NCBI GenBank assembly: GCA_018267545.1
Contig: JAFDYG010000537.1
Span: forward strand, 62,001-126,000
Source of the DNA: Bacteroidota bacterium
GTDB taxonomy: Bacteria > Bacteroidota > Bacteroidia > Chitinophagales > Chitinophagaceae
Length of the DNA: 64,000 nucleotides
Reading direction: 5' to 3'
Shown here in pieces: positions 7,785 to 53,611 of the stretch (position 1 is the first letter of the stretch; each line of letters starts with the position of its first letter). Below the pieces are notes generated by a model. It was not told where the DNA came from and ran no database searches. It saw nothing but the letters and a program-made list of their open reading frames with translations. Position numbers and translations under genes: made by a program.

Positions 7785-7798
7785 CAAACATCATCAAA

Positions 7799-8596
7799 AT
7801 GAAAAAACTACATCTTTATTTAACCAACGCCTTACTCTTTATGCTTTCCAGTCAATCCATCCATGCACAGAGCGATGCCACCAGAGAATTGGAGATCCTC
7901 AGACAGCTGTCCACCCCACCGGTCGTTTCAGGTTTGTCCGTACCAGCCATGCTGAATGCGCCTGGCAACGAAAAGCTAAAAAGCTTTTTCATGACTCCCG
8001 TATCCAACAAAGAACAATTGAAAGGAAAGAGAATTGCCGTCATCGCCGCAGACGGATTCGAAGAGATCGAAATGCTCGCCCCCCTCTGGTATTTCAAAGA
8101 ATTGGGCGCACAAGTAGACATCGTGGCGCCAAAATATAACCCCGCCCCCGCCAGGTACGGCCTGACCATGCCCGAAATGGCCCAGAACCATATCATGGCT
8201 ATTCAATATCTCAACCCCGTCGGATGGGTCAAGGTGGACCGCACCGCAGACCAGATAAAAGTAGCAGAATACGATGCCATCTTCATCCCCGGCGGCGCAT
8301 GGAACCCCGATAACCTCCGGTTCGACAAAGACGTCATTAAATTTATCCAGGACTTCTACAAGAGCGGAAAGCTGACCGCCGCTATCTGCCACGCCCCCGT
8401 CGTGCTGGCCACAGCCGGCATTCTGAAAGGTAAGAAGCTCACCGGTTACTGGAACATCCACACCGACCTGGTCAATGCCGGCGCAACTGTCCTCGACGAA
8501 CCCGTAGTCGTAGACGGCAACCTCATCACCAGCAGACACCCCATCGACGTGGCCGATTTTTCCCGCGCCGTCGCCAACTGGCTAAACAAACATTAA
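7799..8596 (+). CDS. Exported DJ-1/PfpI family protein
   Basis: 265 residues with a Sec signal peptide (1-23, ending SIHAQ) and a DJ-1/PfpI domain from about 77. The family marks are DGFEEIE (85-91), IFIPGG (161-166) and the nucleophile elbow AICHAP with Cys197-His198. Compared with the 197-residue cytoplasmic relative at 2137-2730 it has an extra 50-residue segment after the signal. The likely location is the periplasm. It lies between the double-ABM gene and a LysR regulator, and DJ-1 genes next to LysR genes are often controlled by them. Confidence 0.85.
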   Translation: MKKLHLYLTNALLFMLSSQSIHAQSDATRELEILRQLSTPPVVSGLSVPAMLNAPGNEKLKSFFMTPVSNKEQLKGKRIAVIAADGFEEIEMLAPLWYFKELGAQVDIVAPKYNPAPARYGLTMPEMAQNHIMAIQYLNPVGWVKVDRTADQIKVAEYDAIFIPGGAWNPDNLRFDKDVIKFIQDFYKSGKLTAAICHAPVVLATAGILKGKKLTGYWNIHTDLVNAGATVLDEPVVVDGNLITSRHPIDVADFSRAVANWLNKH

Positions 8597-38302: not shown

Positions 38303-39381
38303 TCTAACATTTTTTGAACCGCCGTAAAATCGAAATTCTTCGTAAAATTCTCCACAAGCCGCTGCCCCGCAGGCACCTTGGTATAACGATAGGCCAGCTC
38401 CACCATCCTCGGCTTCGCAGCTGCCCCCACGCCCGTCCCCGAAGAACCCGCGCCCCCTGCCGCATCCTTCGAAAAATAAGCGGGACTGAGCTTGTATAAA
38501 ACATCCCCATTCTTATCATCCCAAAACTCCACCGCCACACTTGCATCGGGCTTCTGACTCCTCGGGTCCACAACCGCCGGTTTTGCCAGCCACCCCTCAT
38601 CATGCTCCTTCAACGCCTTGTCCACAAGGGCCGTCCCCAGCTTCGCCCGTTGATAATATTCCACCAGCGCCCGTAAATACTCTCCCCTGCTCACCGGAAC
38701 CAGCACAGGCTGCCCCGCCTTCGTTATATACCAATGACGCGTTATATACACACTCCTGTTCCCCTGTTTCACCCCTTCATCCCGCACATCCTGGTAAAAT
38801 CCAATCCCGCTATTCATAGCCTCCAGCAGCCGTTTGTCCTTGACGCGATAGAAGTAGTGCAGACCGATAAATTTCCCATCGTACCTCCCAGCCGTCAGAA
38901 AATAGGGTGCCTCGGTCACATCGAAAGCCCCTTCCACATCCTTAAAAAGATTCACATAAACCCGCAGCACCGTCTGATATTCACTGTTCGTCATGATCTT
39001 CTTGTTCACACAGATATATTCGTAGCAGCCAAGCTGCCAGTCGTAAGGAGCAATTGTGCTCCCCCCATTGACATAATCAAGGTTCCTTCCCGAAAAGGAG
39101 CTCTTCAGCACCACCCCCTTCAAATCGAACCCCTTCCGGCTATCCCTTTCAATCCCCTCGATCTGCGTAAGCACCTTACCAGCCATGCTAATGTTCGCCT
39201 GCGTCTTCAGATCATTCAACCACGACGCCCGCTGCGCCGGATATTCGCAATGAGCGGCGTCGATATACTTCCCCGGCAGCGCATCCAGCTCCGCAGACGT
39301 CTGACAAGCCTGCGCGCCCGTCCCCTGCGCCTGCGCACCTGCTACCCTCAAAAGCAAAAAGAAAAAAACAACCTTTTTCAT
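38299..39381 (-). CDS. Secreted protein of unknown family (B', second copy)
   Basis: 360 residues with signal peptide (1-19). Three cysteines occur near the mature N-terminus and middle (ACQTS, HCEYP, GCYEYICV). Blocks shared with the product of 41522-42763 are PGKYIDA, SSFSG, HWYITKAGQPVLVPVSR followed by EYLRALVEYYQ, VLYKLSPAYF and the C-terminal NFTKNFDF. It is shorter than its paralogue by about 50 residues, mostly in the middle. It is coupled to C' by a 4-base overlap and follows C by 8 bases, so B and C proteins are probably partners. Function unknown. Confidence 0.72.
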   Translation of the reverse strand: MKKVVFFFLLLRVAGAQAQGTGAQACQTSAELDALPGKYIDAAHCEYPAQRASWLNDLKTQANISMAGKVLTQIEGIERDSRKGFDLKGVVLKSSFSGRNLDYVNGGSTIAPYDWQLGCYEYICVNKKIMTNSEYQTVLRVYVNLFKDVEGAFDVTEAPYFLTAGRYDGKFIGLHYFYRVKDKRLLEAMNSGIGFYQDVRDEGVKQGNRSVYITRHWYITKAGQPVLVPVSRGEYLRALVEYYQRAKLGTALVDKALKEHDEGWLAKPAVVDPRSQKPDASVAVEFWDDKNGDVLYKLSPAYFSKDAAGGAGSSGTGVGAAAKPRMVELAYRYTKVPAGQRLVENFTKNFDFTAVQKMLE

Positions 39382-39389
39382 AACAAAAA

Positions 39390-41483
39390 TTAAAAGCCTT
39401 TAATACCTCCCGACATATTCCCCGAAACCAAACTGATCCGCCCCGAAGCCGTGATATCCACACTCGGATTGCTAACCACCCCCGAAGGATCACTCACCGT
39501 ATTGGACCCAACCGTAACCGATGCCTCCCCCGTCACATAGACGTCCTCTACGCCATTCCGGCTGAATTCCATTCCCATGCCCGCCTTCATATTGGCGCCC
39601 ACCTGCAGCGGCCCCATCCCCTTCTTTGCCCCCACATCGATAGCCGTAACCTCGACGGTTCCGTTCGTAAACCGATCCACACCGGTATTGTCCGTCTTGA
39701 AATTCAATTTACCGCTGAGCTTGCCCGCGCTGAAGTCGACATACGCACTGTTACAGCTGAACACCTGTCGCCCAAATCCAAAATCGAGCGTGCTGGAAAA
39801 TTTACAATGCATTTCGTCAAAATCCCCCAGCTTATGCGTCTTGTTCTTATCCGGCAGGTCCGTATTACAAACATTGTTTTCCGTGATATAGGCGCTCTCC
39901 AGGTACCTTCCCCCTCCAACCGCAGCCAGCCATTCCTTTTTCGCCGTGAGCTTCGTCACCTCGAATTCATTGTCGTCCTGTATAAACTGCTTCCAGTACA
40001 GCTCCTCCGATATCTTTAGATAATATTGGTGCAAATAATCCTTATACGCTTCCTCCAGACTCCGGTTGTAATTCTTGTATACCCAATCCGAAAATTCGAC
40101 CTGCACCTTGCACACATCATAACCCAAATCCTCCCCTTTTTTGGCCAGCTCCGTTTCCTGCTCCGCCTTCACGCTGTTCGCCTTGATGAGCCGCTGACGC
40201 GCCTGATCCTTTTCAGCCTGAAAACTCTTTACCAGCTCTTCTATCTTCTTTTTAGCCGCCCCCAGCCTGTACCCGAGCCCCCCATCCTTATTCATGTCTT
40301 CCAAATTCTGTGTCGCGATCTTCTGATAAACACGCCTGGGCCCCGCCGGAGTAGCAGAAAGTCCGCTTACTCCCTTGGCGGAAATGATAGTATAAGTCTG
40401 CTGCGCCTTTTGGGCATTTTGCATAATGTACGGCTGCAGCTGCTTGTTCAATACAAGCATTTGATCCGCTATCAGCTTTTCAAAATTGTTCCATTCGTAT
40501 TTAAGCCGCACCTCCTCGCTATAGGTCTTCGGAAAATCCGGCCGGGTAAACCTCCTCAGGCCCAACGGGTCCGGATCTGGCCTGAACGGCCGGCGCATCT
40601 CACTTCCCTTTACTTTATAGCCAAGCTGCCTCAGCTTGTTATATTTATCCAGAGAGTAACTATAGGCGAGCGAATGCTTCATCTTCTCGATCGCCGCCGC
40701 CTTATTGCCTTTGCTTTCCAGAATAAGACATTGGGTATAATTAGCCTGGGGATGATACGCGAACAACCGAACCGTCTTCTCCAAATACATATCCGCTTTC
40801 TCTATATCCCCCAGGTAGAACCAGGCCTGTCCCAGGTTGTTGAGAACCGTCGTATTATCAGGATACGCCTGATTGAGATACTCCAATATAGGAATCGCCT
40901 GCTGCGGCGCACCCGCCATGCTCAGCATCGCCGAATAATTACAAAGCATATCCCCATCGGGCGTACCCACCCCGCCGCAAACCTTCGTCATCACATATAC
41001 CGCCGGCTCCAGCTTCCCTACCGCCCACAAACCCGCCGCCACATTCGCCATCTCCGCCTGGCTGTACCCGTTCTCCATCAAAAGCCCATAAGCCTTCTGC
41101 CCCATCGCCTTCGAATCCGCCGACAAATGCGCCCCCACATAATCACCCACCTTCTTTATATATCCCGGCAACGTCACCAAATCGAGCTTGACCTTGGGTA
41201 TCGCAGCAATCAACGCCTCATTCTTCCTGGGCACGCCGCCACTCACACCCCCCACAGCCATCGACACCTGTCCATCTGTCATTCCCGTACCTGGCTTCCC
41301 ATCCGGAATCTTGATCCCCATCTGCTCCATCATCTTCCTCTGCTCCGGAGACAATGCATCCAGCGCCTGCTGCGCCTGCTTCTGACGCGCCTCTACCTCC
41401 GCCTTGCTTTGGGGATTACCACTCTGGGCATGTAGACAAAACCCCCACTCCAACGCCAGCAAAAACAAAATATAAATCTTCAT
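39390..41483 (-). CDS. Secreted TPR protein of unknown family (C, first copy)
   Basis: 697 residues with signal peptide (1-19). Near the N-terminus is ALDALSPEQRKMMEQMGI, then a Met/Gly-rich linker, TPR-like repeats at about 145-290 (NLGQAWFYLGDIEKADMYL, HPQANYTQCLILESKG), a Lys/Glu/Gln-rich coiled-coil (about 420-470) and a beta-rich C-terminus with MGPLQVGANMKAGMGMEF and RNGVEDVYVTGEASV. The same order of blocks is found in C' (36191-38302). It lies 38 bases after B and 8 before B'. No enzymatic motif is visible; a scaffold or surface-structure role is inference. Confidence 0.75.
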   Translation of the reverse strand: MKIYILFLLALEWGFCLHAQSGNPQSKAEVEARQKQAQQALDALSPEQRKMMEQMGIKIPDGKPGTGMTDGQVSMAVGGVSGGVPRKNEALIAAIPKVKLDLVTLPGYIKKVGDYVGAHLSADSKAMGQKAYGLLMENGYSQAEMANVAAGLWAVGKLEPAVYVMTKVCGGVGTPDGDMLCNYSAMLSMAGAPQQAIPILEYLNQAYPDNTTVLNNLGQAWFYLGDIEKADMYLEKTVRLFAYHPQANYTQCLILESKGNKAAAIEKMKHSLAYSYSLDKYNKLRQLGYKVKGSEMRRPFRPDPDPLGLRRFTRPDFPKTYSEEVRLKYEWNNFEKLIADQMLVLNKQLQPYIMQNAQKAQQTYTIISAKGVSGLSATPAGPRRVYQKIATQNLEDMNKDGGLGYRLGAAKKKIEELVKSFQAEKDQARQRLIKANSVKAEQETELAKKGEDLGYDVCKVQVEFSDWVYKNYNRSLEEAYKDYLHQYYLKISEELYWKQFIQDDNEFEVTKLTAKKEWLAAVGGGRYLESAYITENNVCNTDLPDKNKTHKLGDFDEMHCKFSSTLDFGFGRQVFSCNSAYVDFSAGKLSGKLNFKTDNTGVDRFTNGTVEVTAIDVGAKKGMGPLQVGANMKAGMGMEFSRNGVEDVYVTGEASVTVGSNTVSDPSGVVSNPSVDITASGRISLVSGNMSGGIKGF

Positions 41484-41521: not shown

Positions 41522-42763
41522 TTAATCCAGCATCTTCCGCAACGCTTCAAAATCATAGTTCTTCTGAAAATTCTTGAACAGCTCCTCCGAAAAATACCGC
41601 CCCATCTCATACCGGAACTCCACCCGCATAAACATCGGCTTCATCAGCGTCTTCTGCTCATTCTTAAAATACTCCGGGTTATATTTATAAAGCACATGTC
41701 CCTCTTCAGGCCGTTCCATAAACCCCTTGAAGTCGAGCAAGCCGCCGGTGGCCTTACTATAGTCGTTATCCCGCTTATCCCTGCTTTTTATAATGGCCTG
41801 CTTACCCAGCCAGTCAGCCCCCTGCCGCTCCAGCAGTCCCTTCACAACAGCCACCTTCGCCTCATAAAACTTCGGATAAGCAGCCTTATCGGCTTCATAA
41901 ATAGCCAGTCTTTTCTTCGCACCATCGCCCCCCGACCTCGTATCGTCCCTTATCTTAAGCCCCATCACCTGCTCCAGATTCCTCTTCTCGATCTCATAAT
42001 ACTCCAGCAACGCCTCCAGGTATTCCTTCCTGGTAGCTGGTACAAATAGCGGCAGGCCCTTTTTGGTGACATACCAATACCTGTCTAACCATTGGTATTT
42101 CTTAGGGTCACTGCCGCCCATTACATTTTCAACCCACCCCGACCCGTTGTTGATCTTGTCGAAATCACTCTTGCTGCTGGCCACCTGGTCCTGCGGGACC
42201 AACTGAGAGATCCTGCTGCCGGGATGCGTCTGGAGATATCCCGCATTGATCTGCTGCAGATCGGCCTCTACAGACACGTCGTACCGAACGCTCTTATCCG
42301 TAATATAGAAGTCCTCGCTGCCTCCATGGAACGTACCGAAATTATTATTATTCACATCCACCCGGAAAACCGTCCGGTATTCGTCTACTGTCTTTACCAC
42401 GTGCTGCGTTATATGGCAGACATTCATATAAGCCGCCAGCTGATACCCATACACCGGCGCAGCATAAGTCCCCAAAAAATAGTTCTGACTACCGCTGAAG
42501 CTGGTTCTCAATACACAGCCCGTAGCCTGGAAATTGCTCCGGCTGGCCTCTTCCACTTTTTCAATGGCAATGAGCCGTTGCAGCTCCACCGCCTTTTCCT
42601 GAGAGGAATAATGACCCAGCCCCATCGCGTATTTCGGCTTCGTATGATCGGTATATTTAGCAGGCATCTTTCCCACTTCATCATCGTCCTTACAAGGCGT
42701 CTCCTGCGCATACAGTGTACCTGCAGCAAGCACAATCGCCGCCGTCAAAGCATATAATTTCAT
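41522..42763 (-). CDS. Secreted protein of unknown family (B, first copy)
   Basis: 413 residues from the ATG at 42763, preferred because it lies after the stop of the upstream gene and starts a clean signal peptide (MKLYALTAAIVLAAGTLYAQ). Blocks shared with B' are PAKYTDH, TSFSGSQN, the YWYVTKKGLPLFVPATR region followed by EYLEALLEYYE, VLYKYNPEYF and the C-terminal NFQKNYDFEALRKML. The middle has extra charged segments. No known domain is recognised. It is second in the five-gene operon. Confidence 0.72.
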   Translation of the reverse strand: MKLYALTAAIVLAAGTLYAQETPCKDDDEVGKMPAKYTDHTKPKYAMGLGHYSSQEKAVELQRLIAIEKVEEASRSNFQATGCVLRTSFSGSQNYFLGTYAAPVYGYQLAAYMNVCHITQHVVKTVDEYRTVFRVDVNNNNFGTFHGGSEDFYITDKSVRYDVSVEADLQQINAGYLQTHPGSRISQLVPQDQVASSKSDFDKINNGSGWVENVMGGSDPKKYQWLDRYWYVTKKGLPLFVPATRKEYLEALLEYYEIEKRNLEQVMGLKIRDDTRSGGDGAKKRLAIYEADKAAYPKFYEAKVAVVKGLLERQGADWLGKQAIIKSRDKRDNDYSKATGGLLDFKGFMERPEEGHVLYKYNPEYFKNEQKTLMKPMFMRVEFRYEMGRYFSEELFKNFQKNYDFEALRKMLD

Positions 42764-42773
42764 ATTGTTCTTT

Positions 42774-43628
42774 TTAGTAAGCCTTGCCCGCATTCAGCGA
42801 CCCGTCAACCCCCATGATATAGGTGTTCTTCGTTCCCGAGCCGCTGACTAATAATTTGGGAGTGTTGAATGTGATGGTTTTATTATTATACACCGGATGC
42901 GGCGCCCCCGAACCCTTCTTCACCTGAAACACGACCTCCACCTTGTCGATCTTCCACGCGTCCGTAAGCAGATTGGGGAAATAGCTGACTTCCAAAACCA
43001 GCCCTTTACTTTGAATATCGTTAAACCATAGCTTCCAGGGCTGATACTCACTGTTAGACCCATTGAACAGCACATAAGGTGTCTCCAGCGTAACCGAAGT
43101 CATATTGTTGGACTTATATTCCTTCTTCCTTTGGTCACCCTGACTTTCATTGCTATACAAATACAGACCCGGGCTACTCGACCCGCTCGGAGACATCACC
43201 CGGATATTCACGCTGGAAGGATATTCCTTGTTATCATTCCCTGTATAAAACCGAACAGTGACACCCGTAAGATAATAGCCGTCATAACAGGTAAGAATTT
43301 GCCCGTCATTGGTATGACCAGGAAAAATGCATGCATTGGTCGGAAACAAACCCGCCGGAGCAGCAGCCGAAGTAGCCGCAGCGGGAGCCGCCGCAGGCTG
43401 CGTAGCCGGAGCCGCTGAAGCCGCCGCCGGAGCCTGCGCAGCCGGCTTCACCGCATTATTGTTTACAATCGGCTGTACCGCAGCGGGAGCCGAAACAACC
43501 TTGGTCGCCGGTGCCGCAATAACCTTAACCGCCGCCTTGTTCATCTTAACCGAATCAATCCTCGACTGAGCCCATCCAAAAAACGGAAAAACTATAAATA
43601 TCAACAGTTTAGGGATTATCTTTATCAT
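42774..43628 (-). CDS. Secreted Ala/Pro-rich protein of unknown family (A)
   Basis: 284 residues from the ATG at 43628, chosen because it begins a signal peptide (MIKIIPKLLIFIVFPFFGWA) and sits 18 bases downstream of a -7-like box. Residues about 40-100 are a low-complexity Ala/Pro/Val linker. The C-terminal 180 residues are a beta-rich domain with two cysteines (NACIFPGH, ILTCYDG) and repeated Thr/Val/Tyr strands; I do not recognise it. It is the first gene of the operon A-B-C-B'-C' and is divergent from the kinase gene across a gap holding two copies of the regulon operator. Confidence 0.7.
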   Translation of the reverse strand: MIKIIPKLLIFIVFPFFGWAQSRIDSVKMNKAAVKVIAAPATKVVSAPAAVQPIVNNNAVKPAAQAPAAASAAPATQPAAAPAAATSAAAPAGLFPTNACIFPGHTNDGQILTCYDGYYLTGVTVRFYTGNDNKEYPSSVNIRVMSPSGSSSPGLYLYSNESQGDQRKKEYKSNNMTSVTLETPYVLFNGSNSEYQPWKLWFNDIQSKGLVLEVSYFPNLLTDAWKIDKVEVVFQVKKGSGAPHPVYNNKTITFNTPKLLVSGSGTKNTYIMGVDGSLNAGKAY

Positions 43629-43646: not shown

Positions 43647-43695
43647 TAAAAGTAGAATCCCCAATCCCCCTAATCAATCGTTAAAAAGAATGATT
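43647..43695 (-). promoter_or_regulatory. Promoter of the A-B-C-B'-C' operon with operator copy 1
   Basis: The operator AATCGTTAAAAAGAATGATT (43676-43695, plus-strand reading) is an inverted repeat of 7-base arms with one mismatch. On the minus strand its end supplies the TT of a TTG -33 box (43677-43675), followed by exactly 20 bases and TACTTTTA (43654-43647), one base from TAnnTTTG. The ATG is 18 bases beyond. The geometry is the same as at the other three regulon promoters. Confidence 0.62.
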
Positions 43696-43715
43696 TCTCC
43701 ACCCCATTTCAATAA

Positions 43716-43764
43716 TATCATTAAAAAGAGTGATAGGAATTCCCCCCGCATTTCCCTTTTTTTG
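43716..43764 (+). promoter_or_regulatory. Promoter of the kinase-regulator operon with operator copy 2
   Basis: The operator TATCATTAAAAAGAGTGATA (43716-43735) runs into TAG at the -33 position, followed by 20 bases and TTTTTTTG (43757-43764), seven of eight to the -7 pattern. The kinase ATG at 43771 is 6 bases beyond, so the transcript may be leaderless. The start is 40 bases from that of operator copy 1, about four helical turns, so both faces of the divergent region could be bound together. Confidence 0.55.
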
Positions 43765-43770
43765 TATCCA

Positions 43771-45708
43771 ATGCGGAACATCATTTTTACGATACTTCTC
43801 CTGGCGCCGGCATATTACGCATCCGCACAGAAGTTATCCGGAATAGACAGCCTGCTGCAACAATTACCCGCAGCAAAGGAAGATAGCAATAAAGCAAAGC
43901 TCCTCATCCGTATCGCCAATTTGTACGGCGAGCACGACATAAAGAACTCCGAAAAATATTGCGTGCTGGCCAATAATCTAAGCCGGAAAATCAATTATCC
44001 GGAAGGAATGCTACACTCCTATGCAGGCTGGTCGGATGCGCTTAAATCGGAAGGTCTTTACGATTCTTGCCTGGCCGTGAACCTCGAATCCGTTGCTTAC
44101 AGCAGAAAGATCAACAATCAGCTCTACCTGGGTTATTCCCTGTACAACGCCGGCATCTCCTATATAAAGCTGGGCCAGTATGAAAACGCCATTGGCGCCA
44201 TCGAAGAAAGCAGAGCAATTTTCGAACGATTGAAGGATAAGGTAATCGAAGGGAACATCTATAATTTCCTGCAGGTTCTGGCTACCAATATGCATCAGTA
44301 CAGAAAAGCAGTCGGCTATGGCCTGAAAGCAATAGAGATCCTCCAGACAGGTAATGACAGTGAGACCTTGTGCCAGAGCTATAACAATCTCGGTTTGAGC
44401 TATATCTACGTCCAATCCTACGACTCGGCGAAATATTACCTTGGAAAAGGCTACGAAATTGCACAGGCGTCCAACATAGAATTGGTAAAGACGACGTATA
44501 ACATCAACCATGGACTCATCGCCCTGCGCCTGCAAACACCCGACAGCCTGCGCTACTATGCACAAAATGCCCTGGAGCTGTCCCATAAAAACGGCATGCA
44601 CGAATATGAAAGTCTTGCCCTTTATGGATTGGCCAGCGCTTACCTGTCCAAAAAAGACTATGCCGCTGCAAAGCTCTATGCGGATTCCTGCAAACAGCTG
44701 GCCGATAGATACAACCTGCAGCAGGCCAAACCGCTGCTTTATACACTCCTGTCTAATTATTATTTTGCCGTCCAAAACACCCGCCTGGGCGACTACTACT
44801 CTCAGCAGCAGGAATTGCTGAAAGACAGCATTTTGAACGAGTCTATCACCAAAAACACGATAGACATCGAAAAGAAATACGAGACCCAGCGAAAGGACGA
44901 CCAGATCCGTCTCCAGCAAAGCCGGCTAAAGCAACAGGCCATCCTGAATTATTTTCTGATAGCAAGCGCCATCGGTCTGGCGATCATCTCGATGCTATCT
45001 TACCGCAACTACAAAAGCCGCCAAAAGCTCCAGCAGACGAAGATCGAAGAGCTCGAAAGAGAACGGCAGCTGAGCGCAACCGAAGCCGTACTGAAAGGGG
45101 AAGAACAGGAACGAACCCGCCTCGCCAAAGAGCTCCACGACGGCCTGGGAGGAATGCTCAGCGGCATAAAATATTCTTTCATCAACATGAAAGAAACCCT
45201 TCCGCCGGAAAACACCCAGGCATTCGAACGCAACCTCGACATGCTCGACACCAGCATCCGCGAGATGCGCCGCGTAGCCCACAACCTCATGCCCGAAATT
45301 CTGATCAAATACGGACTGAACGCCGCCCTAAAAGAATTTTGCAATGAGATCAGCCGGAGCGGAGTGATTGCGATCGTATACCAGCCGATGGGCCTGGAAA
45401 AGGAGAACATTGATCAAAGCACCTCCCTGGCCGTTTACCGGATAGTACAGGAACTGGTGCACAACGTCATCAAACACGCAGCGGCAAAGACGGTGCTGGT
45501 CCAGATTCACGCCTCTCCACAGGATGGAATCCTATCGGTAACCGTAGAAGACGACGGCAAAGGCTTTACCCCCGCTACCCTGGACAACAGGTCCGGCATC
45601 GGCTGGATCAATATACAAAACAGGATAGACCTCTTGAAAGGCAGGGTGGACATTAGCTCTGCCCCCGGCGGTGGAACCTCCGTCTTAGTCGAAATCGATA
45701 TTAAATAA
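43771..45708 (+). CDS. TPR-containing HisKA_3 (NarL-partner) sensor histidine kinase
   Basis: 645 residues from the ATG at 43771, which begins a signal peptide (MRNIIFTILLLAPAYYASA); the longer frame would cross both operators. TPR-like repeats fill the periplasmic part (about 25-360), one membrane helix lies at about 390-412, then HisKA_3 with the phospho-acceptor in RLAKELHDGLGG (His near 456) and a HATPase_c domain with N-box ELVHNVIKHA and DDGKGF. It phosphorylates the NarL-type regulator encoded 17 bases downstream. It is divergent from the secreted operon. Confidence 0.9.
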   Translation: MRNIIFTILLLAPAYYASAQKLSGIDSLLQQLPAAKEDSNKAKLLIRIANLYGEHDIKNSEKYCVLANNLSRKINYPEGMLHSYAGWSDALKSEGLYDSCLAVNLESVAYSRKINNQLYLGYSLYNAGISYIKLGQYENAIGAIEESRAIFERLKDKVIEGNIYNFLQVLATNMHQYRKAVGYGLKAIEILQTGNDSETLCQSYNNLGLSYIYVQSYDSAKYYLGKGYEIAQASNIELVKTTYNINHGLIALRLQTPDSLRYYAQNALELSHKNGMHEYESLALYGLASAYLSKKDYAAAKLYADSCKQLADRYNLQQAKPLLYTLLSNYYFAVQNTRLGDYYSQQQELLKDSILNESITKNTIDIEKKYETQRKDDQIRLQQSRLKQQAILNYFLIASAIGLAIISMLSYRNYKSRQKLQQTKIEELERERQLSATEAVLKGEEQERTRLAKELHDGLGGMLSGIKYSFINMKETLPPENTQAFERNLDMLDTSIREMRRVAHNLMPEILIKYGLNAALKEFCNEISRSGVIAIVYQPMGLEKENIDQSTSLAVYRIVQELVHNVIKHAAAKTVLVQIHASPQDGILSVTVEDDGKGFTPATLDNRSGIGWINIQNRIDLLKGRVDISSAPGGGTSVLVEIDIK

Positions 45709-45725
45709 CTATAACAAGCAATGTG

Positions 45726-46340
45726 ATGAAAGCAAGCCTATTTATCGTCGACGATCATTATATGGTAATCGAGGGAATCCGTTCCCTCCTGCAAAACGAA
45801 AAGGAAATCATCTGGATGGGCCACGCCACCAATGCCGCTTCCTGCCTCAGCTTCCTCAAACAGCAACAGCCCGACATCATCCTGATGGACGTAAACCTGC
45901 CCGACATCAGCGGCATCGAGCTATGCAAAGAAGTACGCGAAAAATACCCCTCTACCTACGTCCTGGGCCTCAGCACCTTCAACCAGCAGGCCATTATCCG
46001 CAATATGATGGACAACGGCGCCTCAGGCTATATCCTAAAGAACGCCGACAAGACCGAGCTCCTGGCAGCGATCAAAGAAGTCGGACTCGGCAAAACCTAC
46101 ATGAGCGATGAAGCCTCCCTATCCCTAAAAGATTCCAGCAGCGAGGTCACCCTCATCACCCGCCGCGAAAAAGAAATCCTCAAGCTCATCGCAACCGGCC
46201 TCACCAACGCAGAAATATCCGCCCAGCTCTTCATCAGTATCCCCACCGTCAACACTCATCGCAAAAGCCTCCTGGAAAAATTCGAAGCTAAAAATACCGC
46301 CATCCTCATCGGCAAAGCCACCAAACAGGGCCTGATCTAA
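45726..46340 (+). CDS. NarL/LuxR-type response regulator
   Basis: 204 residues from the ATG at 45726 (a GTG codon precedes it). The receiver domain has the acidic pair FIVDD, phospho-acceptor Asp55 in ILMDVNLPD and Lys in GYILKNAD; the C-terminus is a LuxR-type HTH (about 140-200) with LTNAEISAQLFISIPTVNTHR. LuxR-type proteins bind as dimers to inverted repeats, which fits the 20-bp palindromes at the promoters of this operon and of three neighbouring units. That it binds them is inference from position and symmetry. Confidence 0.92.
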   Translation: MKASLFIVDDHYMVIEGIRSLLQNEKEIIWMGHATNAASCLSFLKQQQPDIILMDVNLPDISGIELCKEVREKYPSTYVLGLSTFNQQAIIRNMMDNGASGYILKNADKTELLAAIKEVGLGKTYMSDEASLSLKDSSSEVTLITRREKEILKLIATGLTNAEISAQLFISIPTVNTHRKSLLEKFEAKNTAILIGKATKQGLI

Positions 46341-46347
46341 CCCCCTT

Positions 46348-47520
46348 TCACACTCCATTCTTCAGCACATTCGTCTCCGTATACGCCGAAGCCCCGACAT
46401 AAACAAACCGTAAGACCCATCCGCCCCAAACCTTCCCCGCCAACAAAGAACCAGCCGCGCTCCCACCTGCTTTCCCTCCATCCCTCCTCGCCCCCGGCGG
46501 CCAATCGATAATCGGCTTACCCGGAGTATACGGCGGCTTGTAGCTCCACTTAGTACCACTTCGCCCATCCCGCTCCGTATTCTTATCATACGTCAAATCG
46601 AGATACGTCTGATTCATACCCGAATAATAATGAAATTCAAAAGTATAGCTGACCTTCTCCAGCTTCCTCGCAGTCGACTTCTTCAAACTCCCCCACTCGC
46701 CCGAGTTGCCGCTCGCGCTCTTGCTCCAACTTTCATTTTTCCCCTCCACAGGCGTAACGACCAGCTGATTCCCCACCACAGCCCAGGTCCCCGCCTCATG
46801 CGCAAAAAATATCTCCGTATTATAAGAGGAAAAATCCTTTTCCAAAAACACATAGGTCCCATCCGACTTAAAAGTATATGCCTTCCTGAAATACCCCGCC
46901 GTAAGCATCGGCGACCCATTCGCAAACTTCATCCCGCTTGTCTCCGACATATTACTCTCCCATATCCCCACAACCGTATTCCCGTCAGCCCCAGCCGCCC
47001 CGGCAACCTCCTCCATCTCCACAGACTTCAAAAATCCCACCATCTCCCCCTGATACTTATCCGTATTCGCCATCAAAACAATCGCCGCAATCTTTCCACC
47101 CCCCGTAGCCGTAACAAGCGTCACCAAACCCTTATTCCCACCATCCGTATAATACGCCTGCCCCGAAACCACATCCCACCCCTTCCCCTTCGAAGGCTCC
47201 CCCATAACAGGCTCGCCTGAAACTGTCACAGTCCCCTTCACCAATTTCTGCCACAACCCAGCCCACCCCTCACCCGCAGCCACATCCGTCGCCGAAGACT
47301 TGATGATCAACGCCACCGCATACTCCCCGGTCTTCTCATTCCCGGTATAAATCTGCACCCCATTTTCTTTCACCTCCTTCTTCCATCCCGCCGGCAGACT
47401 ATAAAAAACGACATCATACTTTTCCTTTTGCGCAGATGCGCCCGCATTTTGCGCAAACGCAACCGTGGCAGCAGCCATAAAGACCACCGCCAACACCAAA
47501 AAAAATGCAACTTGTTTCAT
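46348..47520 (-). CDS. Secreted lipocalin-like protein with N-terminal alpha/beta domain
   Basis: 390 residues from the ATG at 47520, which begins a signal peptide (MKQVAFFLVLAVVFMAAATVAFA) and follows a strong Shine-Dalgarno. Residues about 35-180 form a domain resembling PsbP/MOG1-like or DUF-type sandwich folds (FYSLPAGWKKEV, GLVTLVTATGGGK). Residues about 190-300 have the lipocalin-like pattern VGIWESN, YTFKSDGTYVF, GTWAVVGNQLVVTP. A proline-rich, low-complexity tail follows. Ligand unknown. It has its own copy of the regulon operator and reads toward the response regulator gene. Confidence 0.65.
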   Translation of the reverse strand: MKQVAFFLVLAVVFMAAATVAFAQNAGASAQKEKYDVVFYSLPAGWKKEVKENGVQIYTGNEKTGEYAVALIIKSSATDVAAGEGWAGLWQKLVKGTVTVSGEPVMGEPSKGKGWDVVSGQAYYTDGGNKGLVTLVTATGGGKIAAIVLMANTDKYQGEMVGFLKSVEMEEVAGAAGADGNTVVGIWESNMSETSGMKFANGSPMLTAGYFRKAYTFKSDGTYVFLEKDFSSYNTEIFFAHEAGTWAVVGNQLVVTPVEGKNESWSKSASGNSGEWGSLKKSTARKLEKVSYTFEFHYYSGMNQTYLDLTYDKNTERDGRSGTKWSYKPPYTPGKPIIDWPPGARRDGGKAGGSAAGSLLAGKVWGGWVLRFVYVGASAYTETNVLKNGV

Positions 47521-47530
47521 GTAATAGGAA

Positions 47531-47538
47531 CCTCCTTT
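47531..47538 (-). promoter_or_regulatory. Strong Shine-Dalgarno of the lipocalin-like gene
   Basis: The minus strand reads AAAGGAGG ending 10 bases before the ATG at 47520. A full anti-SD match is uncommon in Bacteroidota, where most genes lack one, and it decides the start at 47520 over the longer frame. Confidence 0.5.
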
Positions 47539-47541
47539 CGA

Positions 47542-47590
47542 CAAATGTACCCTTACCCCTACCCCCGGTCAATCATTAAAAAGAATGATT
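47542..47590 (-). promoter_or_regulatory. Promoter of the lipocalin-like gene with operator copy 3
   Basis: The operator AATCATTAAAAAGAATGATT (47571-47590) is a perfect inverted repeat of 7-base arms about a 6-base centre. On the minus strand it supplies the TT of a TTG (47572-47570), then exactly 20 bases, then TACATTTG (47549-47542), a full -7 match. This is the clearest of the four copies. Confidence 0.68.
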
Positions 47591-47986
47591 TTACCCAATA
47601 ACCACAAACCCCCGGTCCACAAACCACTTCCCATAATCATACCCATATTCCCCGCCATAATTGATCGTAATCTCCGTATGCGCCGGAATATCCTGAAAAG
47701 CAGTATACGTCATCGCCCTCCGCTCCCTGTCTAATTCATAAATCGTATTGGGATACCTGGCATAGTTGTACATCGACCCAAACCCCATCACCAGCGAAAG
47801 CGTCCGCTCTTCTTTATTGAAGTAAAAGCTGTAATCGGCCAGCTTCGTCTCATCGATCGCCGCCCCGCTGTCCGCCGGCACGACGATCAACGGGCAGACT
47901 TCGATCGTATCTCCCACAGCAATATCCCGACTACAAAACACACCCCGCCCCTTCCCCTTTACTTCTTTTAAATAAAGCTTACTCAT
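47591..47986 (-). CDS. SET-domain protein (methyltransferase-like), second of pair
   Basis: 131 residues from the ATG at 47986, which overlaps the preceding stop by 8 bases (ATGAGTAA). SET landmarks: GRGVF (13-17) and EITINYG (105-111) at the cofactor site. The usual NHS motif is replaced by YNYARYPN (73-80), so S-adenosylmethionine binding is uncertain. No signal peptide; cytoplasmic. SET proteins methylate lysines; bacterial members are few and their substrates mostly unknown. It shares ancestry with the preceding gene. Confidence 0.68.
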   Translation of the reverse strand: MSKLYLKEVKGKGRGVFCSRDIAVGDTIEVCPLIVVPADSGAAIDETKLADYSFYFNKEERTLSLVMGFGSMYNYARYPNTIYELDRERRAMTYTAFQDIPAHTEITINYGGEYGYDYGKWFVDRGFVVIG

Positions 47987-48386
47987 TCTCCGGAAAATAT
48001 ACAGGCCGCCCATCATCCGGACGGCCATTGTAATTAATAGTAATCTCTTCCCCAGCCCGAATCATCCGATACGCATAAAATTTTATCGTCTTCCTCCTCC
48101 GGCTAAACGCATAAAACGCATTGGCCCGCCCCGAATGATTATAAAACGAGCTATAGCCAAACCCAAACACCGCCGGATACTCCGCATCATTCACCAGGAA
48201 GTAATAGTTGAAAAGCGGACTATGCCGCAGCATCTCCTTCTCCTCTCCCGACAGAAAAACAGCAGGAGCCACCTCGATAATAGCCCCCCTGCGAATATCC
48301 GTCTTCGCAAACACCCCACGCCCATGCAGCGGACTATCCCTTACCTCGACACTATCCGGCTGACAAATCCTTCTATCGAAAAGCAT
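47979..48386 (-). CDS. SET-domain protein lysine methyltransferase-like, first of pair
   Basis: 135 residues from the ATG at 48386. SET landmarks are present: GRGVF (22-26), YNHS with Asn-His-Ser at 83-85, and EITINYN (114-120). The length matches minimal SET-only bacterial proteins. It has no signal peptide. The start overlaps the stop of the lysine-rich gene by one base (TGATG), so the two are translationally coupled, which suggests a functional relation such as enzyme and substrate. Confidence 0.72.
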   Translation of the reverse strand: MLFDRRICQPDSVEVRDSPLHGRGVFAKTDIRRGAIIEVAPAVFLSGEEKEMLRHSPLFNYYFLVNDAEYPAVFGFGYSSFYNHSGRANAFYAFSRRRKTIKFYAYRMIRAGEEITINYNGRPDDGRPVYFPENE

Positions 48387-48643
48387 CACTTCTGACCAGC
48401 AGCTTTTTTAATCTCCTTATTCGCAGGAGCCGCTTTATAAGTCGCCGGCGCATACTTTAAAGAAGCAGGAGCAAGCTTCGCTTCCTTCTGCTCCTTTATC
48501 GCCGCAGGGCTCTTGACAGCAGCGCCCTTCTTGACAAGGCTATCGGCCGCAGGCTTGACGGTTTCCTTTTGCGCATTGGGTGTCTGTGCTTTAAGGCCCG
48601 TGATGATCAACAGGCTGCTTAAAATGGCTAATGTTTTTTTCAT
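48386..48643 (-). CDS. Small secreted lysine/alanine-rich protein
   Basis: 85 residues from the ATG at 48643, with signal peptide MKKTLAILSSLLIITGLKAQ. The mature 65 residues are disordered in character: about 14 lysines, many alanines and prolines, and no arginine or cysteine. The composition recalls histone H1-like tails, but the signal peptide argues for export. Two SET-domain methyltransferase-like genes follow at once. No family is recognised. Confidence 0.62.
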   Translation of the reverse strand: MKKTLAILSSLLIITGLKAQTPNAQKETVKPAADSLVKKGAAVKSPAAIKEQKEAKLAPASLKYAPATYKAAPANKEIKKAAGQK

Positions 48644-48647
48644 ACCC

Positions 48648-48696
48648 ACAAAATACCCTTCCTCCCCGGTCCCTCCTATCCTTAAAAAAGAGGATT
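48648..48696 (-). promoter_or_regulatory. Promoter of the Lys-rich/SET operon with operator copy 4
   Basis: TATCCTTAAAAAAGAGGATT (48677-48696) matches the best operator at 15 of 20 positions and keeps the inverted-repeat form with changed arms. On the minus strand it ends in TAG at the -33 position, as in copy 2, followed by 20 bases and TATTTTGT (48655-48648), a weak -7. The ATG is 4 bases beyond. Confidence 0.45.
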
Positions 48697-48747: not shown

Positions 48748-50148
48748 CTAATATCCGGGATTCTGCACCACTTTATTCAACGTAAGCTCCCCAACCGGAA
48801 TCGGCAGCAGAAGCTGATCTTTATTCTTAATCCTCGGATTGATCGTCTGCAGCGTCCCCAACGGCAGCCTTCTCAACGCAAACCAATCCACCCCATTCTC
48901 ATACGCAAAATTCCGCAGATTCTCTTTGATGATCTCCAGTTGTAACGCCTCCGCCGTCACCGCGCCATCCACCGCCGCAACCTCCGAAACACCCGCCCCG
49001 GCATGCGACATCACTGTCTTCAACAACGCCTTCGCCCCCGCCAAATCGCCCCCCGACATCGTCATCGCCTCCGCCTCCAGCAAATATGCCTCCGACAGCC
49101 GGAAAGCATAACAATTACTGCTCAACGGCGTCTGTTTAGGAGCGACAAAATCTCCCGAATAATATTTCGACAATCGATAGTCTTTCGAGCTACCATTAGG
49201 AACAATCTTATACATCCATTGATTCCTCGCATCATCCGCCAGCAGGTCGGGCAAATACCCTGTAATAGCATTCCTCGACCCCACATAGGCAGTGTATTTC
49301 CTGGTCTCTCCCGAATAAGGTTGAATCCCCAGCATAACCTCTTTACTATTGAAACCCTTGGTCAAAAAGATGTCCTTCAGGCTATCCTCCAAAACAAAGG
49401 GCCCCGTACTAATAATATCTTTCGTCAAGCTAATCACCTGGGCATAATCCCCCGCCGCCCCCCTGTTCATCAAAACCCGCGCCTTGAGCAATTTGGCCGT
49501 ACCCGCATTCACGGAGTAAATGTTCGTGTTCAACGCCGGCAGTCCACCGATAGCCGCATCCAGATCCGCCAGGATCGACGTATAAGCAGCCGCAACACCC
49601 GTCCGTGGAAGCGTAATGTCGTCCACATTGGCCGACCTTTCCCGCAATATGATCCCATACGAGCTCGCCGGATCATAGTACTGACCAAAATAAAGCAGCA
49701 GCTCAGCGTTCGCAAAAGCCCGCATAAACCTCGCCTCCGCCAGCATTCGCTGCTTCACCCCAGCCCCCACCGACGTCACCGGCGTCATATTCTCGACAAA
49801 TCCATTTGCCGCCTCCACCAGGTTATACCCATAGCTCCATATGCCCGGGTCATCAGTCGGCGGTTTCAGCACATGATTGTAAAAGCTGGCTATGGCGAAA
49901 ACCTGGATCGCACCCGCAAGCACCGACGGGTCCTCCTCCTGTAAATAATACCATGTGGTAGAAGTGCCCGTGGAAGCGACAAATCTATAATAAACCCCAT
50001 TCAGCACCTGCTGGGCGCTCACCTGATCCGTAATCAGATTTCCATCCACCAGCGAAGTAGTCGGATAGACATTCAGCTGCTTCTTGCAGGCCCCGAAAAA
50101 CAGCCCCGCCGCCAGGAAGACCGATAAGCTAAGATGAGTGTGTTTCAT
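48748..50148 (-). CDS. SusD/RagB family lipoprotein
   Basis: 466 residues with a lipoprotein signal ending FFGAC (lipidated Cys near 20). SusD features include ANGFVENM, MLAEARFMRAFANAELL and the C-terminal LLLPIPVGELTLN with NPGY. It lies one base after the SusC stop, so both are made from one transcript. It is shorter than the 561-residue SusD at 23365-25050, suggesting a smaller ligand-binding insertion. Confidence 0.92.
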   Translation of the reverse strand: MKHTHLSLSVFLAAGLFFGACKKQLNVYPTTSLVDGNLITDQVSAQQVLNGVYYRFVASTGTSTTWYYLQEEDPSVLAGAIQVFAIASFYNHVLKPPTDDPGIWSYGYNLVEAANGFVENMTPVTSVGAGVKQRMLAEARFMRAFANAELLLYFGQYYDPASSYGIILRERSANVDDITLPRTGVAAAYTSILADLDAAIGGLPALNTNIYSVNAGTAKLLKARVLMNRGAAGDYAQVISLTKDIISTGPFVLEDSLKDIFLTKGFNSKEVMLGIQPYSGETRKYTAYVGSRNAITGYLPDLLADDARNQWMYKIVPNGSSKDYRLSKYYSGDFVAPKQTPLSSNCYAFRLSEAYLLEAEAMTMSGGDLAGAKALLKTVMSHAGAGVSEVAAVDGAVTAEALQLEIIKENLRNFAYENGVDWFALRRLPLGTLQTINPRIKNKDQLLLPIPVGELTLNKVVQNPGY

Positions 50149-50149
50149 T

Positions 50150-53100
50150 TTAGAATATTGCTTTTAATCCGAATGTAAATGTCCTGAGAATTGGATAGTT
50201 CGCGGCATCCACATACCCGCCGCCCACGAAATAAGGGTCGTCCGATACTTCCGGATCACTTCCCGGATATTTCGTAATGATGAAGATATTCGTGGCCGAC
50301 ATAAACAACCGCATCCCGCTCACACCAGCCTTCTTCATCCACAACGCCTCCCCGAACCGGTAATTGATCGTAGCGGTCCTTAGCTTGAAATAGGACGAGC
50401 TGAATACATCCAGGTTCGTAGCGGTGTAATTGACACTGGTCAGATCGAGCCGCGGCTGATTACCATTAGTCTGCCCGGCCGTGTATCGACCGAAGATCGA
50501 AACAGGGGCATTGAAGGGACCAAAGAACTGCGTCGCCGCTACGTGCTGCGCCCAAAGCAGATGACCCCCATGCGAAAAGGCAAAAAACAAGTCCAGGCCC
50601 CAGTTCTTATAGCTGAATTCCTGCGTCATGCCGCCATAATATTTTGGAGGCCCAACGCCGATAATTTGATTTTTTAACGGACCCAGATAGTTCGACGACG
50701 CCGGGTCGCTATCGATCCTGTACATTGGATCGCCTAACAACGGCGGGTAAAATCTTGCATAGATCCCGATCAACTTGCTGTAAGCATCGATATCCGCCTG
50801 CGTTTTGATAACCCCGGTAATATAATTGCCCGCCATCACTCCCAACGACTGACCTTTCTTAAGGATGGTCAGCTGCGGACGAATGCTATTGACCGGATTT
50901 GCCTCGATCCCCGACGGACTGGTAATCTGCGACAAATCTGCAATACTGTCCAGCCTGGTCACGATGGTCTTATTCCAGGTGACATTAATGGAAACGGTCC
51001 ATTTAAAGTCCCTGCTCCGAATAATGTCCCCGCCGATACTCGCTTCATAACCCCTGCTTCGTAAACCCGCAACATTTTGCAGCAAAGAGGGGAAGGAATT
51101 GCTGACGGAAATCGGCAGCTTCAGAAGGGCGTGGTCCGTATTCCGGTTATAATAATCGAAGGTCGCATTCAACCGGTTGTCCAGCAGCGACACATCCGCC
51201 CCCGCACCGGCTTCCTTCGTACGTTCCCACCGGACGCTCGCATTACCCATCTGTACAGGAAGTAAAGCGGTCCCCCCCGTATAAGAAACAGTATTGTATA
51301 AAGCACGATACAGCTGATCGCCGATATTTTGATTCCCCACCAGCCCATAGCTTCCCCTTAGCTTGATATCGTTGATCCATCGCACACGTCTCAGGAAACT
51401 TTCCCGCGATACCCGCCATGCTACAGCCCCCGACGGAAAATAGCCGTACTTATTGTTAGGACCGAACTTGGATGACCCATCCGCCCGCCCCGTAAAGGTC
51501 AGCAGATACTTATCCATAAAGCTGTAATTGGTCCGTAGGTAGAAGGAAAGCAGGTAGCTCTGCGGCGAACGCGGCTCGTCCCCCGCAACACCAACCACCG
51601 TGCTTGCCGAGGACAGACCATTTAAAAAGTTGTCATTGGGATACCCCGACGCCGTCGTCCTGAACCAGCTGTATTTAGTCGTTTCATAAGACTGCCCTGC
51701 CACTACATTCACCCCGTGTTTGTTGAATTGCTGATTATAGCTAAGCGTATTCTCCAGGAACCAGTCCATAAATCGACTATTGGCCTCACTTCCTATCCCA
51801 CCCGTGTTTGGACTATTGTTCCCGCCTTTTGCTTGATCGATATAGCTGGGCAGATAATTCCGCTGATTGTAATGCTGTAAATTCAGTGAAACCGCAGTCC
51901 TGAAGCGGAGCCTCCTGGTAAGATCATAGGTCCCCGAAAGAGTGCCCAAAAGACTCAGCGTCTTTCCATTGTTAGTAGCCGTCACAAGCGCCGCCGGATT
52001 GACAAGTCCACGGATCGAAGCGCCCAGCGCATTGAAGTTGGCATAGCGCCCCGTAGAATCCCTTGGCTGGATATCCGGCCTCGCCAGCATCGCCTGCATA
52101 TAGGCGCCATTGCTGACGTCCTGGTTGACAAATCCTGCCAGCAGATTGGAGGAAATTTTCACCCTCGCCCCAACCGAAGTTTCCAGGTTCAGTTTAGCCG
52201 TAAATCGCTGATAGTTGGTCCCCCGCAGCACACCCGGGGTGCTCGTATAGGAAAAGGAATTGAAGTATCTCGACGCATGACCTCCTCCCGAAACAGATAC
52301 CCCTGCATTATTCGAAACGGTCGTATGCGTCACCTGCCTGACCCAATCGACATTCGCCGTACCAAAGTAGTTCGGGCTGTCCACGATCGTAGACAGAGAG
52401 CTATAAGACGTAATCCCCTGCGACTTATAAGTGTCCATCCCATTTCTCGCCGCCTCCCGCAGGAGCATCATAAACTGCTCCTTATTCAGCAGCTTCGGCG
52501 ACCTGAACAAGGAGTTGACCGTAGTAGAATAATCCACCGCTACCCGGGCCGGCGAATTGACGATCCCCGACTTCGTCGTAATCATCACAACCCCATTGGC
52601 CGCCTTGGACCCATAGATGGCCGTGGCCGACGCATCCTTCAGCACCGAGATCGACTCGATATCTTCCGGATTGACCCCGCCCAGACTATTCAAAGAATTT
52701 ATAAACGACGCCGACAAGGCCACGCCGCTGCCCGAACCATTACCGGCCAGATTTCCATTGGGACTTGGAACGGCGAATCCCGGGTCGATAAAATTATACC
52801 GGACCTGCACCGGCACCCCATCGATCACATACAACGGGTCATTACCACCCAAAAACGAGCTCGACCCGCGAATCCTCACCCTGACCATCCCGCCCGGCGT
52901 CCCATCCGTCTTGGTAACCTCTACACCCGCCGTCTTCCCCGCAAGCGCATTATCGAAAGTATTATACGGGACTTCCCCCAGCTCCCGGACCCCAACCGTA
53001 GAAACAGCCCCCGTCAAATCTTTTTTCTTGCTGCTGCCATATCCGATCACCACCACCTGATCGGGACTGGCTGGATTGACAGCCAGCAAGACATTCACAT

Positions 53101-53611
53101 ACGCCCGGTCCCCAATCCGCACCCTCTGATCCCGAAATCCAACAAAACTAAAAGAGACCTCATCCCCCTTCCTACCCGTAATAACAAAGGCCCCGCTCGA
53201 ATCCGTTTCCGTACCATTATACCTCCTCCTGTTCATGACAGTGACGCCCATCAGTGGCTGCCCACTCTCATCCACAACCCTTCCCCGCACCTTCACTTCG
53301 GAAACATCCGGAGCAGCCACCTGCTCTTCCCTCTTCAACAACACATTATTCCCCACCACCGTAAACACCATCGGCTGTCCGGCAAAACACTTTGCCAGCA
53401 CATCCTGCAGCGTAGCATTCTTTACATGGATGGTAATAGGGCCCGCCTTCCACTCGCCCGCATCGTACAAAAAGACATACCTGGTTTGCTTTTCAATAGC
53501 CAGAAGAACCTTATCCAGCGAGGCATTCTTCTCTTTTAGCGTAATCTGGCCATACGCAGCCGAACTCACATACAGCAGAAGGATCACCAACGGGATTGTT
53601 GCCAATTTCAT
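50150..53611 (-). CDS. SusC/RagA TonB-dependent receptor with STN domain
   Basis: 1153 residues from the ATG at 53611 (signal peptide MKLATIPLVILLLYVSSAA). An STN domain (about 22-95) precedes a carboxypeptidase-regulatory-like domain, a plug with PDQVVVIGYG and VLKDASATAIYGSKAANG, and a TonB barrel ending RTFTFGLKAIF. The STN domain normally talks to FecR, but no fecR or sigma gene is nearby; instead a HisKA_2 kinase gene is divergent 105 bases away. Substrate unknown. Confidence 0.95.
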   Translation of the reverse strand: MKLATIPLVILLLYVSSAAYGQITLKEKNASLDKVLLAIEKQTRYVFLYDAGEWKAGPITIHVKNATLQDVLAKCFAGQPMVFTVVGNNVLLKREEQVAAPDVSEVKVRGRVVDESGQPLMGVTVMNRRRYNGTETDSSGAFVITGRKGDEVSFSFVGFRDQRVRIGDRAYVNVLLAVNPASPDQVVVIGYGSSKKKDLTGAVSTVGVRELGEVPYNTFDNALAGKTAGVEVTKTDGTPGGMVRVRIRGSSSFLGGNDPLYVIDGVPVQVRYNFIDPGFAVPSPNGNLAGNGSGSGVALSASFINSLNSLGGVNPEDIESISVLKDASATAIYGSKAANGVVMITTKSGIVNSPARVAVDYSTTVNSLFRSPKLLNKEQFMMLLREAARNGMDTYKSQGITSYSSLSTIVDSPNYFGTANVDWVRQVTHTTVSNNAGVSVSGGGHASRYFNSFSYTSTPGVLRGTNYQRFTAKLNLETSVGARVKISSNLLAGFVNQDVSNGAYMQAMLARPDIQPRDSTGRYANFNALGASIRGLVNPAALVTATNNGKTLSLLGTLSGTYDLTRRLRFRTAVSLNLQHYNQRNYLPSYIDQAKGGNNSPNTGGIGSEANSRFMDWFLENTLSYNQQFNKHGVNVVAGQSYETTKYSWFRTTASGYPNDNFLNGLSSASTVVGVAGDEPRSPQSYLLSFYLRTNYSFMDKYLLTFTGRADGSSKFGPNNKYGYFPSGAVAWRVSRESFLRRVRWINDIKLRGSYGLVGNQNIGDQLYRALYNTVSYTGGTALLPVQMGNASVRWERTKEAGAGADVSLLDNRLNATFDYYNRNTDHALLKLPISVSNSFPSLLQNVAGLRSRGYEASIGGDIIRSRDFKWTVSINVTWNKTIVTRLDSIADLSQITSPSGIEANPVNSIRPQLTILKKGQSLGVMAGNYITGVIKTQADIDAYSKLIGIYARFYPPLLGDPMYRIDSDPASSNYLGPLKNQIIGVGPPKYYGGMTQEFSYKNWGLDLFFAFSHGGHLLWAQHVAATQFFGPFNAPVSIFGRYTAGQTNGNQPRLDLTSVNYTATNLDVFSSSYFKLRTATINYRFGEALWMKKAGVSGMRLFMSATNIFIITKYPGSDPEVSDDPYFVGGGYVDAANYPILRTFTFGLKAIF

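Follow-up and report, generated by a model that had tools for sequence, protein, structure and literature searches.

We describe a 20-bp inverted repeat, and the two-component system that we propose acts on it, in a 64,000-nucleotide stretch of a Chitinophagaceae genome (assembly GCA_018267545.1, contig JAFDYG010000537.1, positions 62,001 to 126,000; this whole stretch is referred to as the window and its own numbering is used). The repeat occurs four times, in front of a five-gene secreted operon, a kinase-regulator operon, a lipocalin-like gene and a short operon for a Lys-rich peptide and SET-domain proteins. "Secreted" here means an N-terminus judged by eye, apart from a stricter measure given below.

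Operator copies and promoter geometry in the window

The four positions given for the repeat in the original prediction were borne out when the sequence was read directly, and the fixed geometry described there is exact at every copy: the operator is followed by one base (making TTG or TAG), 20 bases and a -7 box, the operator-to-box distance being exactly 21 nt at 4/4 copies. The elements, with the units they are predicted to serve, and the two genes of the kinase-regulator operon are:

43676-43695, minus strand: operator 1, AATCATTCTTTTTAACGATT (letters on the minus strand), serving the secreted operon
43647-43654, minus strand: -7 box TACTTTTA, 21 nt past operator 1
43716-43735, plus strand: operator 2, TATCATTAAAAAGAGTGATA, on the kinase side, with proposed autoregulation; divergent pairs also occur in relatives
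43757-43764, plus strand: -7-like box TTTTTTTG, 21 nt past operator 2
47571-47590, minus strand: operator 3, AATCATTCTTTTTAATGATT, serving the lipocalin-like gene
47542-47549, minus strand: -7 box TACATTTG, 21 nt past operator 3
48677-48696, minus strand: operator 4, AATCCTCTTTTTTAAGGATA, serving the Lys-rich/SET operon
48648-48655, minus strand: -7 box TATTTTGT, 21 nt past operator 4
43771-45708, plus strand: TPR sensor histidine kinase (Pfam TPR_12, HisKA_3 and HATPase_c), relatives of which adjoin operators elsewhere
45726-46340, plus strand: NarL/FixJ-type response regulator (Pfam Response_reg and GerE), the proposed operator binder

Copies 1, 3 and 4 thus face minus-strand units and copy 2 the plus-strand kinase operon. 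The kinase assignment is based on HisKA_3 (40.5 bits, cutoff 24) and HATPase_c (54.4 bits, cutoff 26.4), and that of the regulator on an N-terminal Response_reg (92.2 bits, cutoff 30.2) and a C-terminal GerE domain (61.7 bits, cutoff 23.5). The pattern AATCATTAAAAAGAATGATT at three mismatches or fewer matches the window three times, where 0.01 matches are expected, and ATCNTNNTTTTTAANGAT at no more than one mismatch matches four times, whereas 40 dinucleotide shuffles gave 0.05 matches on average and never more than 1. In operator 4, which the original prediction called degenerate, both half-sites are altered (AATCCT...AGGATA), and like forms are present in genomes G160 and G393. Operators 1 and 2 both lie inside a long open reading frame (ORF) beginning at 43627, the likely kinase start being the ATG at 43771. 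The start codon comes just 5-6 bp after the end of the -7 box at operators 2 and 4 (43764-43771 and 48643-48648, respectively), and messages from these two promoters would therefore have almost no leader.

Copy 3 follows directly after the stop of a SET gene and the centre of the palindrome is an A/T tract, as might be expected of a terminator hairpin or an A-tract promoter element and not of a protein site. This explanation is almost certainly wrong, since the position of the palindrome is fixed relative to the promoter boxes and its half-sites can change jointly (AATCAT/ATGATT versus AATCCT/AGGATA).

Distribution of the operator and its proposed regulator

The window's own genome (7.3 Mb, 553 contigs) was scanned with the 20-mer pattern AATCNTTAAAAANNNNGATT, no box being required. 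This gave 32 places at two mismatches or fewer (7 perfect, 6 with one and 19 with two mismatches), compared with 17 for the reversed control. Nine of the 13 places at one mismatch or fewer lie ahead of apparent secreted-protein genes with the box at exactly 21, and one is kinase-side (C5:11087). Three (C42, C269 and C489:7297) lack the box geometry; these counts address the question, attached to the original prediction, whether the motif is common genome-wide away from promoters. The 19 two-mismatch places are at background level, window copy 2 excepted. TANHTT is present at offset 21 in all nine secreted-gene sites (background 0.0055 per position), and the genes downstream encode a LamG protein (strong Pfam match), Hcp-like and CARDB-like proteins (both below cutoff) and a lipocalin-like paralogue. 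C5 repeats the window plan: a TPR protein resembling the kinase start, truncated at the edge of the contig, and an Hcp-like operon are transcribed divergently, and two operators lie there at a distance of 39 bp.

Operator and box together, at two mismatches or fewer, were found in 35 of 394 family genomes (23 of 101 genera), in 29 of these at no more than one mismatch, and the reversed control gave a single match. Within the genus the occurrence is patchy, operator and box at 0-1 mismatches being present in only 2/23 same-genus genomes (G010 and G023). With a looser pattern and two mismatches, matches were obtained in 21 of 39 relatives, mostly as scattered singles and with a similar control, and no genome was conspicuous except G010, G023 and the own one. 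Absence of the motif upstream of orthologues, which would have counted against the original prediction, was not seen for close regulators, but the system itself comes and goes among close relatives. Among 298 genomes sampled from the order, matches were confined to the own family (7 genomes, own counted). When a single genome from each of 84,980 species was scanned for exact matches, 94 stretches were returned; the 80 listed with titles are all from Bacteroidota, namely Chitinophagaceae, Pedobacter with its relatives, a small number of Cytophagales and a large number labelled only Bacteroidetes or Sphingobacteriales bacterium. Terrimonas ferruginea and Chitinophaga terrae are among these titles. 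An ORF lies downstream at 110 of the 113 exact sites in these stretches, and 91 of the 110 start within 50 bp of the box. A regulator of at least 65% identity is encoded within 28/94 stretches.

In the fetched regions one plan recurs, in which a TPR kinase-regulator operon and secreted genes are read divergently, each direction having its own operator. Where a boxed and an unboxed site are neighbours (29 pairs), the start-to-start distance is mostly 29-49 bp (22 pairs) and otherwise 73-455 bp (7 pairs). Among 129 sites located through the operator alone, from the window and 54 fetched regions that were mostly picked by a box-containing pattern and so are not unbiased, 70 have the box at 21, 2 have it at 20 and 3 at some other position within 60 nt. 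For 78 kinase-side views, not selected for a box but including target-side sites viewed from the wrong side, the first TTTG is at offset 24-25 in 29, no TTTG is found within 45 nt in 25, and other offsets account for at most four each. The promoter consensus AATCATCTTTTTTAATGATTG-N20-TACTTTTA summarises 166 different sites, all selected to have the box at 21.

A regulator match at E<=1e-62 was present in all 29 genomes with an operator at one mismatch or fewer, compared with 81/365 others (p 4e-18), and at a 287-bit threshold, chosen after the data were seen, 27 genomes have both, 2 the operator only, 5 the regulator only and 360 neither (p 1.8e-34); to the detriment of the argument, both p values are too small because genomes share ancestry. 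This strong set omits six genomes with only two-mismatch operators (G371, G062, G289, G219, G337 and G167), and counting all 35 operator genomes at 287 bits changes the table to 28/7/4/355. As to the regulator-only genomes, G167 has two-mismatch sites while G160, G248, G393 and G346 carry diverged operators at the kinase promoter. The operator-only genome G041 fits on inspection, having the same helix residues and an operator pair adjoining its regulator. A TPR kinase beside an operator lacks an adjacent regulator at L110 (own C344:1-3051, a 3-kb contig) and L118 (G139), and at L186 (G269:C4) a regulator gene (7583-8197) with an operator upstream lacks an adjacent kinase; several sensors may therefore feed one regulator.

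More distant regulators (59-68% identical) have another operator at the kinase promoter, AATCATGGAAAAAGGGGAG (type II, the window form being type I), with unchanged spacing as read from individual regulator rows and from a family-wide scan whose pattern fixed that spacing. Type II sites numbered 44, in 40/394 genomes (reversed control 2), and 33/44 lie within 3 kb upstream of a regulator gene. In a tree of 75 regulators, labelled by a 12-base half-operator at one mismatch or fewer within 320 bp upstream (L141 had both forms and was set to I), 47/48 type I rows and 14/14 type II rows are on opposite sides of one supported branch. At helix positions 176/181, 46/48 type I rows have N/S and 14/14 type II rows have D/N or E/N. 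Residue 176 aligns to the NarL position that we take to be numbered K188 and to contact DNA. Thirteen rows had no operator label. On a wider look four of these (L116, L227, L255 and L303) have type I sites in their stretch, L298 has only a three-mismatch type I-like site and L182 a three-mismatch type II-like site; L188 and L189 have no site in their stretch, which excludes the DNA ahead of the kinase, and nothing was seen on the wider look at the other five. The matched divergence of operator and recognition helix supports binding of the operator by the regulator.

Some observations pull the other way. Four of the 35 operator genomes (G371, G062, G289 and G219) look like AT-rich chance matches. 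The regulator matches of operator-only genome G217 are all type II, yet this genome carries one perfect type I site with a box (L136:8403-8422), and no secreted gene is nearby. G337 (88% complete) has type I-like operators and no close regulator; an operator and Hcp-like gene (L185:9086-9787) adjoin there a kinase and a regulator of more remote relationship (31% and 37% identity) that may form an additional class of the system. In seven rows the helix residues are type II-like and no type II operator was called, and the type II regulator L305 is preceded by a type I operator, in a genome (G088) that also has a type I regulator. Moreover, because operator and helix change together on one deep branch, this change is one event and not many independent tests.

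Another DNA-binding protein, encoded elsewhere, could bind the operator, the kinase-regulator operon being merely one target. Many operators are indeed far from any regulator gene, and the G337 and G217 sites have no close type I regulator. We nevertheless consider this explanation highly improbable given the co-occurrence with this regulator across the 394 genomes, its position beside the divergent operator pair, and a recognition helix and operator that diverge in step. With the genome-wide sites added, the comparison supports the adjacent NarL-type regulator as the probable binder, as originally predicted.

Predicted target genes

Downstream of 210 sites, 336 distinct proteins fall into recurrent families, one of them of 19 Hcp-like proteins; the largest group (115 members) mixes protein kinds through chaining. 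Since the families recur, each of the four window units that the original prediction assigned to the operators has relatives near such operators. The window genes concerned are:

42777-43628, minus strand: secreted operon gene 1, of a recurrent target family (19 members)
41525-42763, minus strand: secreted operon gene 2, 413 amino acids, no Pfam family, clustering with the 115-member group
39390-41483, minus strand: secreted operon, protein with weak TPR matches, of a recurrent TPR-like target family (67 members, 52 loci)
38299-39381, minus strand: secreted operon gene 4, 360 amino acids, no Pfam family
36191-38302, minus strand: secreted operon gene 5, ERPSKEQM type, same target family as 39390-41483
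46348-47520, minus strand: apparent secreted protein with PsbP-like and lipocalin-like parts (70 similar targets at 53 loci, itself counted)
48386-48643, minus strand: small Lys/Ala-rich protein with signal-like start, of the Lys-rich target family (8 members, 6 loci, window counted)
47979-48389, minus strand: SET-domain protein (Pfam), SET family of 8 in 4 other loci
47591-48028, minus strand: SET-domain protein (Pfam)

A crude signal-peptide measure was too permissive (121/125 first genes versus 835/1131 background ORFs), while the stricter one was positive for 68/125 first genes versus 156/565 non-target ORFs (p 2e-8). The model of the window lipocalin-like protein has a part weakly resembling PsbP and a lipocalin-like part (Pfam match below cutoff); the PsbP-like reading comes from weak Foldseek matches (best PsbP-family E 1.6e-3, with a single match, whatever its family, at E<=0.001). 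Two apparent regulon members, L109:10360-10989 and L110:1099-1728, are Hcp-like and have signal-like starts. The structural model of an Hcp-like target from a relative is of low confidence (mean pLDDT 52.3), and the Hcp resemblance is consequently based on Foldseek (best E 3e-7) and on Pfam matches below cutoff (15.4 versus 23.5 bits in the relative). The tandem small SET-domain genes (47591-48389) are located behind the Lys-rich peptide gene, and a similar pair of Lys-rich and SET-like genes is present in L298 (10596-11307). A second TPR histidine kinase in the window (53717-55960), by eye of another kinase type, lies beside a SusC/SusD-like pair (48748-53611, also by eye).

Direction of control and comparison with known systems

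Taken together, the palindrome is very probably the operator of the 45726-46340 regulator, dimers of which would bind near -43.5, activate in class II style and autoregulate. In Flavobacterium psychrophilum the sigma-A -7 box is placed at -12 to -5 in passages of PMC9723704, and with the box set there the operator spans -53 to -34, with its centre at -43.5. From what is known of these families, the TPR sensor kinase (43771-45708) would phosphorylate the regulator, a dimer of which would bind the inverted repeat and, against a weak or absent -33 element, most likely contact RNA polymerase. The kinase-side operator suggests autoregulation, and with one operator per direction between kinase operon and secreted operon this would be positive and go together with target expression, in a regulon extending genome-wide and possibly fed by shared signalling from several sensors.

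A polymerase contact needs fixed spacing, which a repressor usually does not. The sites abut the -35/-33 element at fixed spacing, as activator sites do at class II promoters, and the -33 TTG is often missing, the last operator base being A in 37/166 sites and the next base not G in 53/166. Whether binding activates or represses was left open in the original prediction; the near-invariant spacing at target promoters, the same spacing at kinase and type II promoters and the frequent loss of the TTG suggest that the balance favours activation by polymerase contact. The same regulator and operator could instead act by repression, with the -33 region covered until signalling releases the regulator. 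That the operator abuts the -33 position speaks for this and against activation, and TTG is kept at many type I promoters (the base after the operator is G in 113/166 sites). Repression is unlikely all the same, as the distance to the box hardly varies among target promoters and is also the preferred one at kinase promoters, a good many sites lack the TTG, and the related FimR is described as an activator in passages of PMC1974823 and of a review.

Beyond activation by this regulator, we tentatively suggest, leaning slightly to the doubtful side, a modular hub in which one shared regulator, acting via one operator, is fed by several TPR kinases that each have their own secreted cargo next to them (Hcp-like, PsbP/lipocalin-like, TPR or lectin-like). 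The Chitinophagaceae regulator would have split into two classes with distinct operators, mainly by replacement of N with D or E at position 176 together with that of S with N at 181, and the resulting regulons would run in parallel with the promoter geometry unchanged. To our knowledge, operators have been defined for few two-component regulators of Bacteroidota. With site, spacing, likely regulator and targets nameable in many genera, proteins often matching no family can be grouped into one response. The system also offers a natural switch of regulator-operator specificity and perhaps an example of many sensors signalling to a single regulator.

No description of this regulon was found in listings of the open-licence literature. 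The window regulator resembles Escherichia coli NarL in its receiver and GerE domains, aligned over residues 3-190 with NarL 1a04, and is below the cutoffs of the best 25 of 115 matched NCBIfam models. Its proposed operator, a 20-bp palindrome with an A-tract centre, is unlike the heptamers of NarL. The lux box is likewise a 20-bp palindrome, centred near -42.5 according to parts of PMC4471428 and PMC7585371, compared with the -43.5 deduced here; however, the window operator differs in sequence and is coupled to a Bacteroidota -7 box, and the regulator has a receiver and, among its five Pfam matches, no autoinducer-binding family.

The closest characterised relative is the FimS/FimR two-component system of Porphyromonas gingivalis. 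FimR is LuxR-type. Like FimS, the window kinase joins a TPR sensor region to a histidine kinase (TPR_12, HisKA_3), and its residues 106-432 match the FimS model, although at 54.7 bits it is far below the equivalog cutoff of 600. No fimbrial family is among the matches of the window targets scanned, several of which match no family. For a comparison of operators, PMC1974823 contains none of the words palindromic, inverted and binding site. The TPR sensor region of FimS implies that the signal might be a protein, as proposed in part of a review. We regard what is described here as a real and widely conserved regulon of a known two-component type, with predicted binding to an operator that is newly defined.

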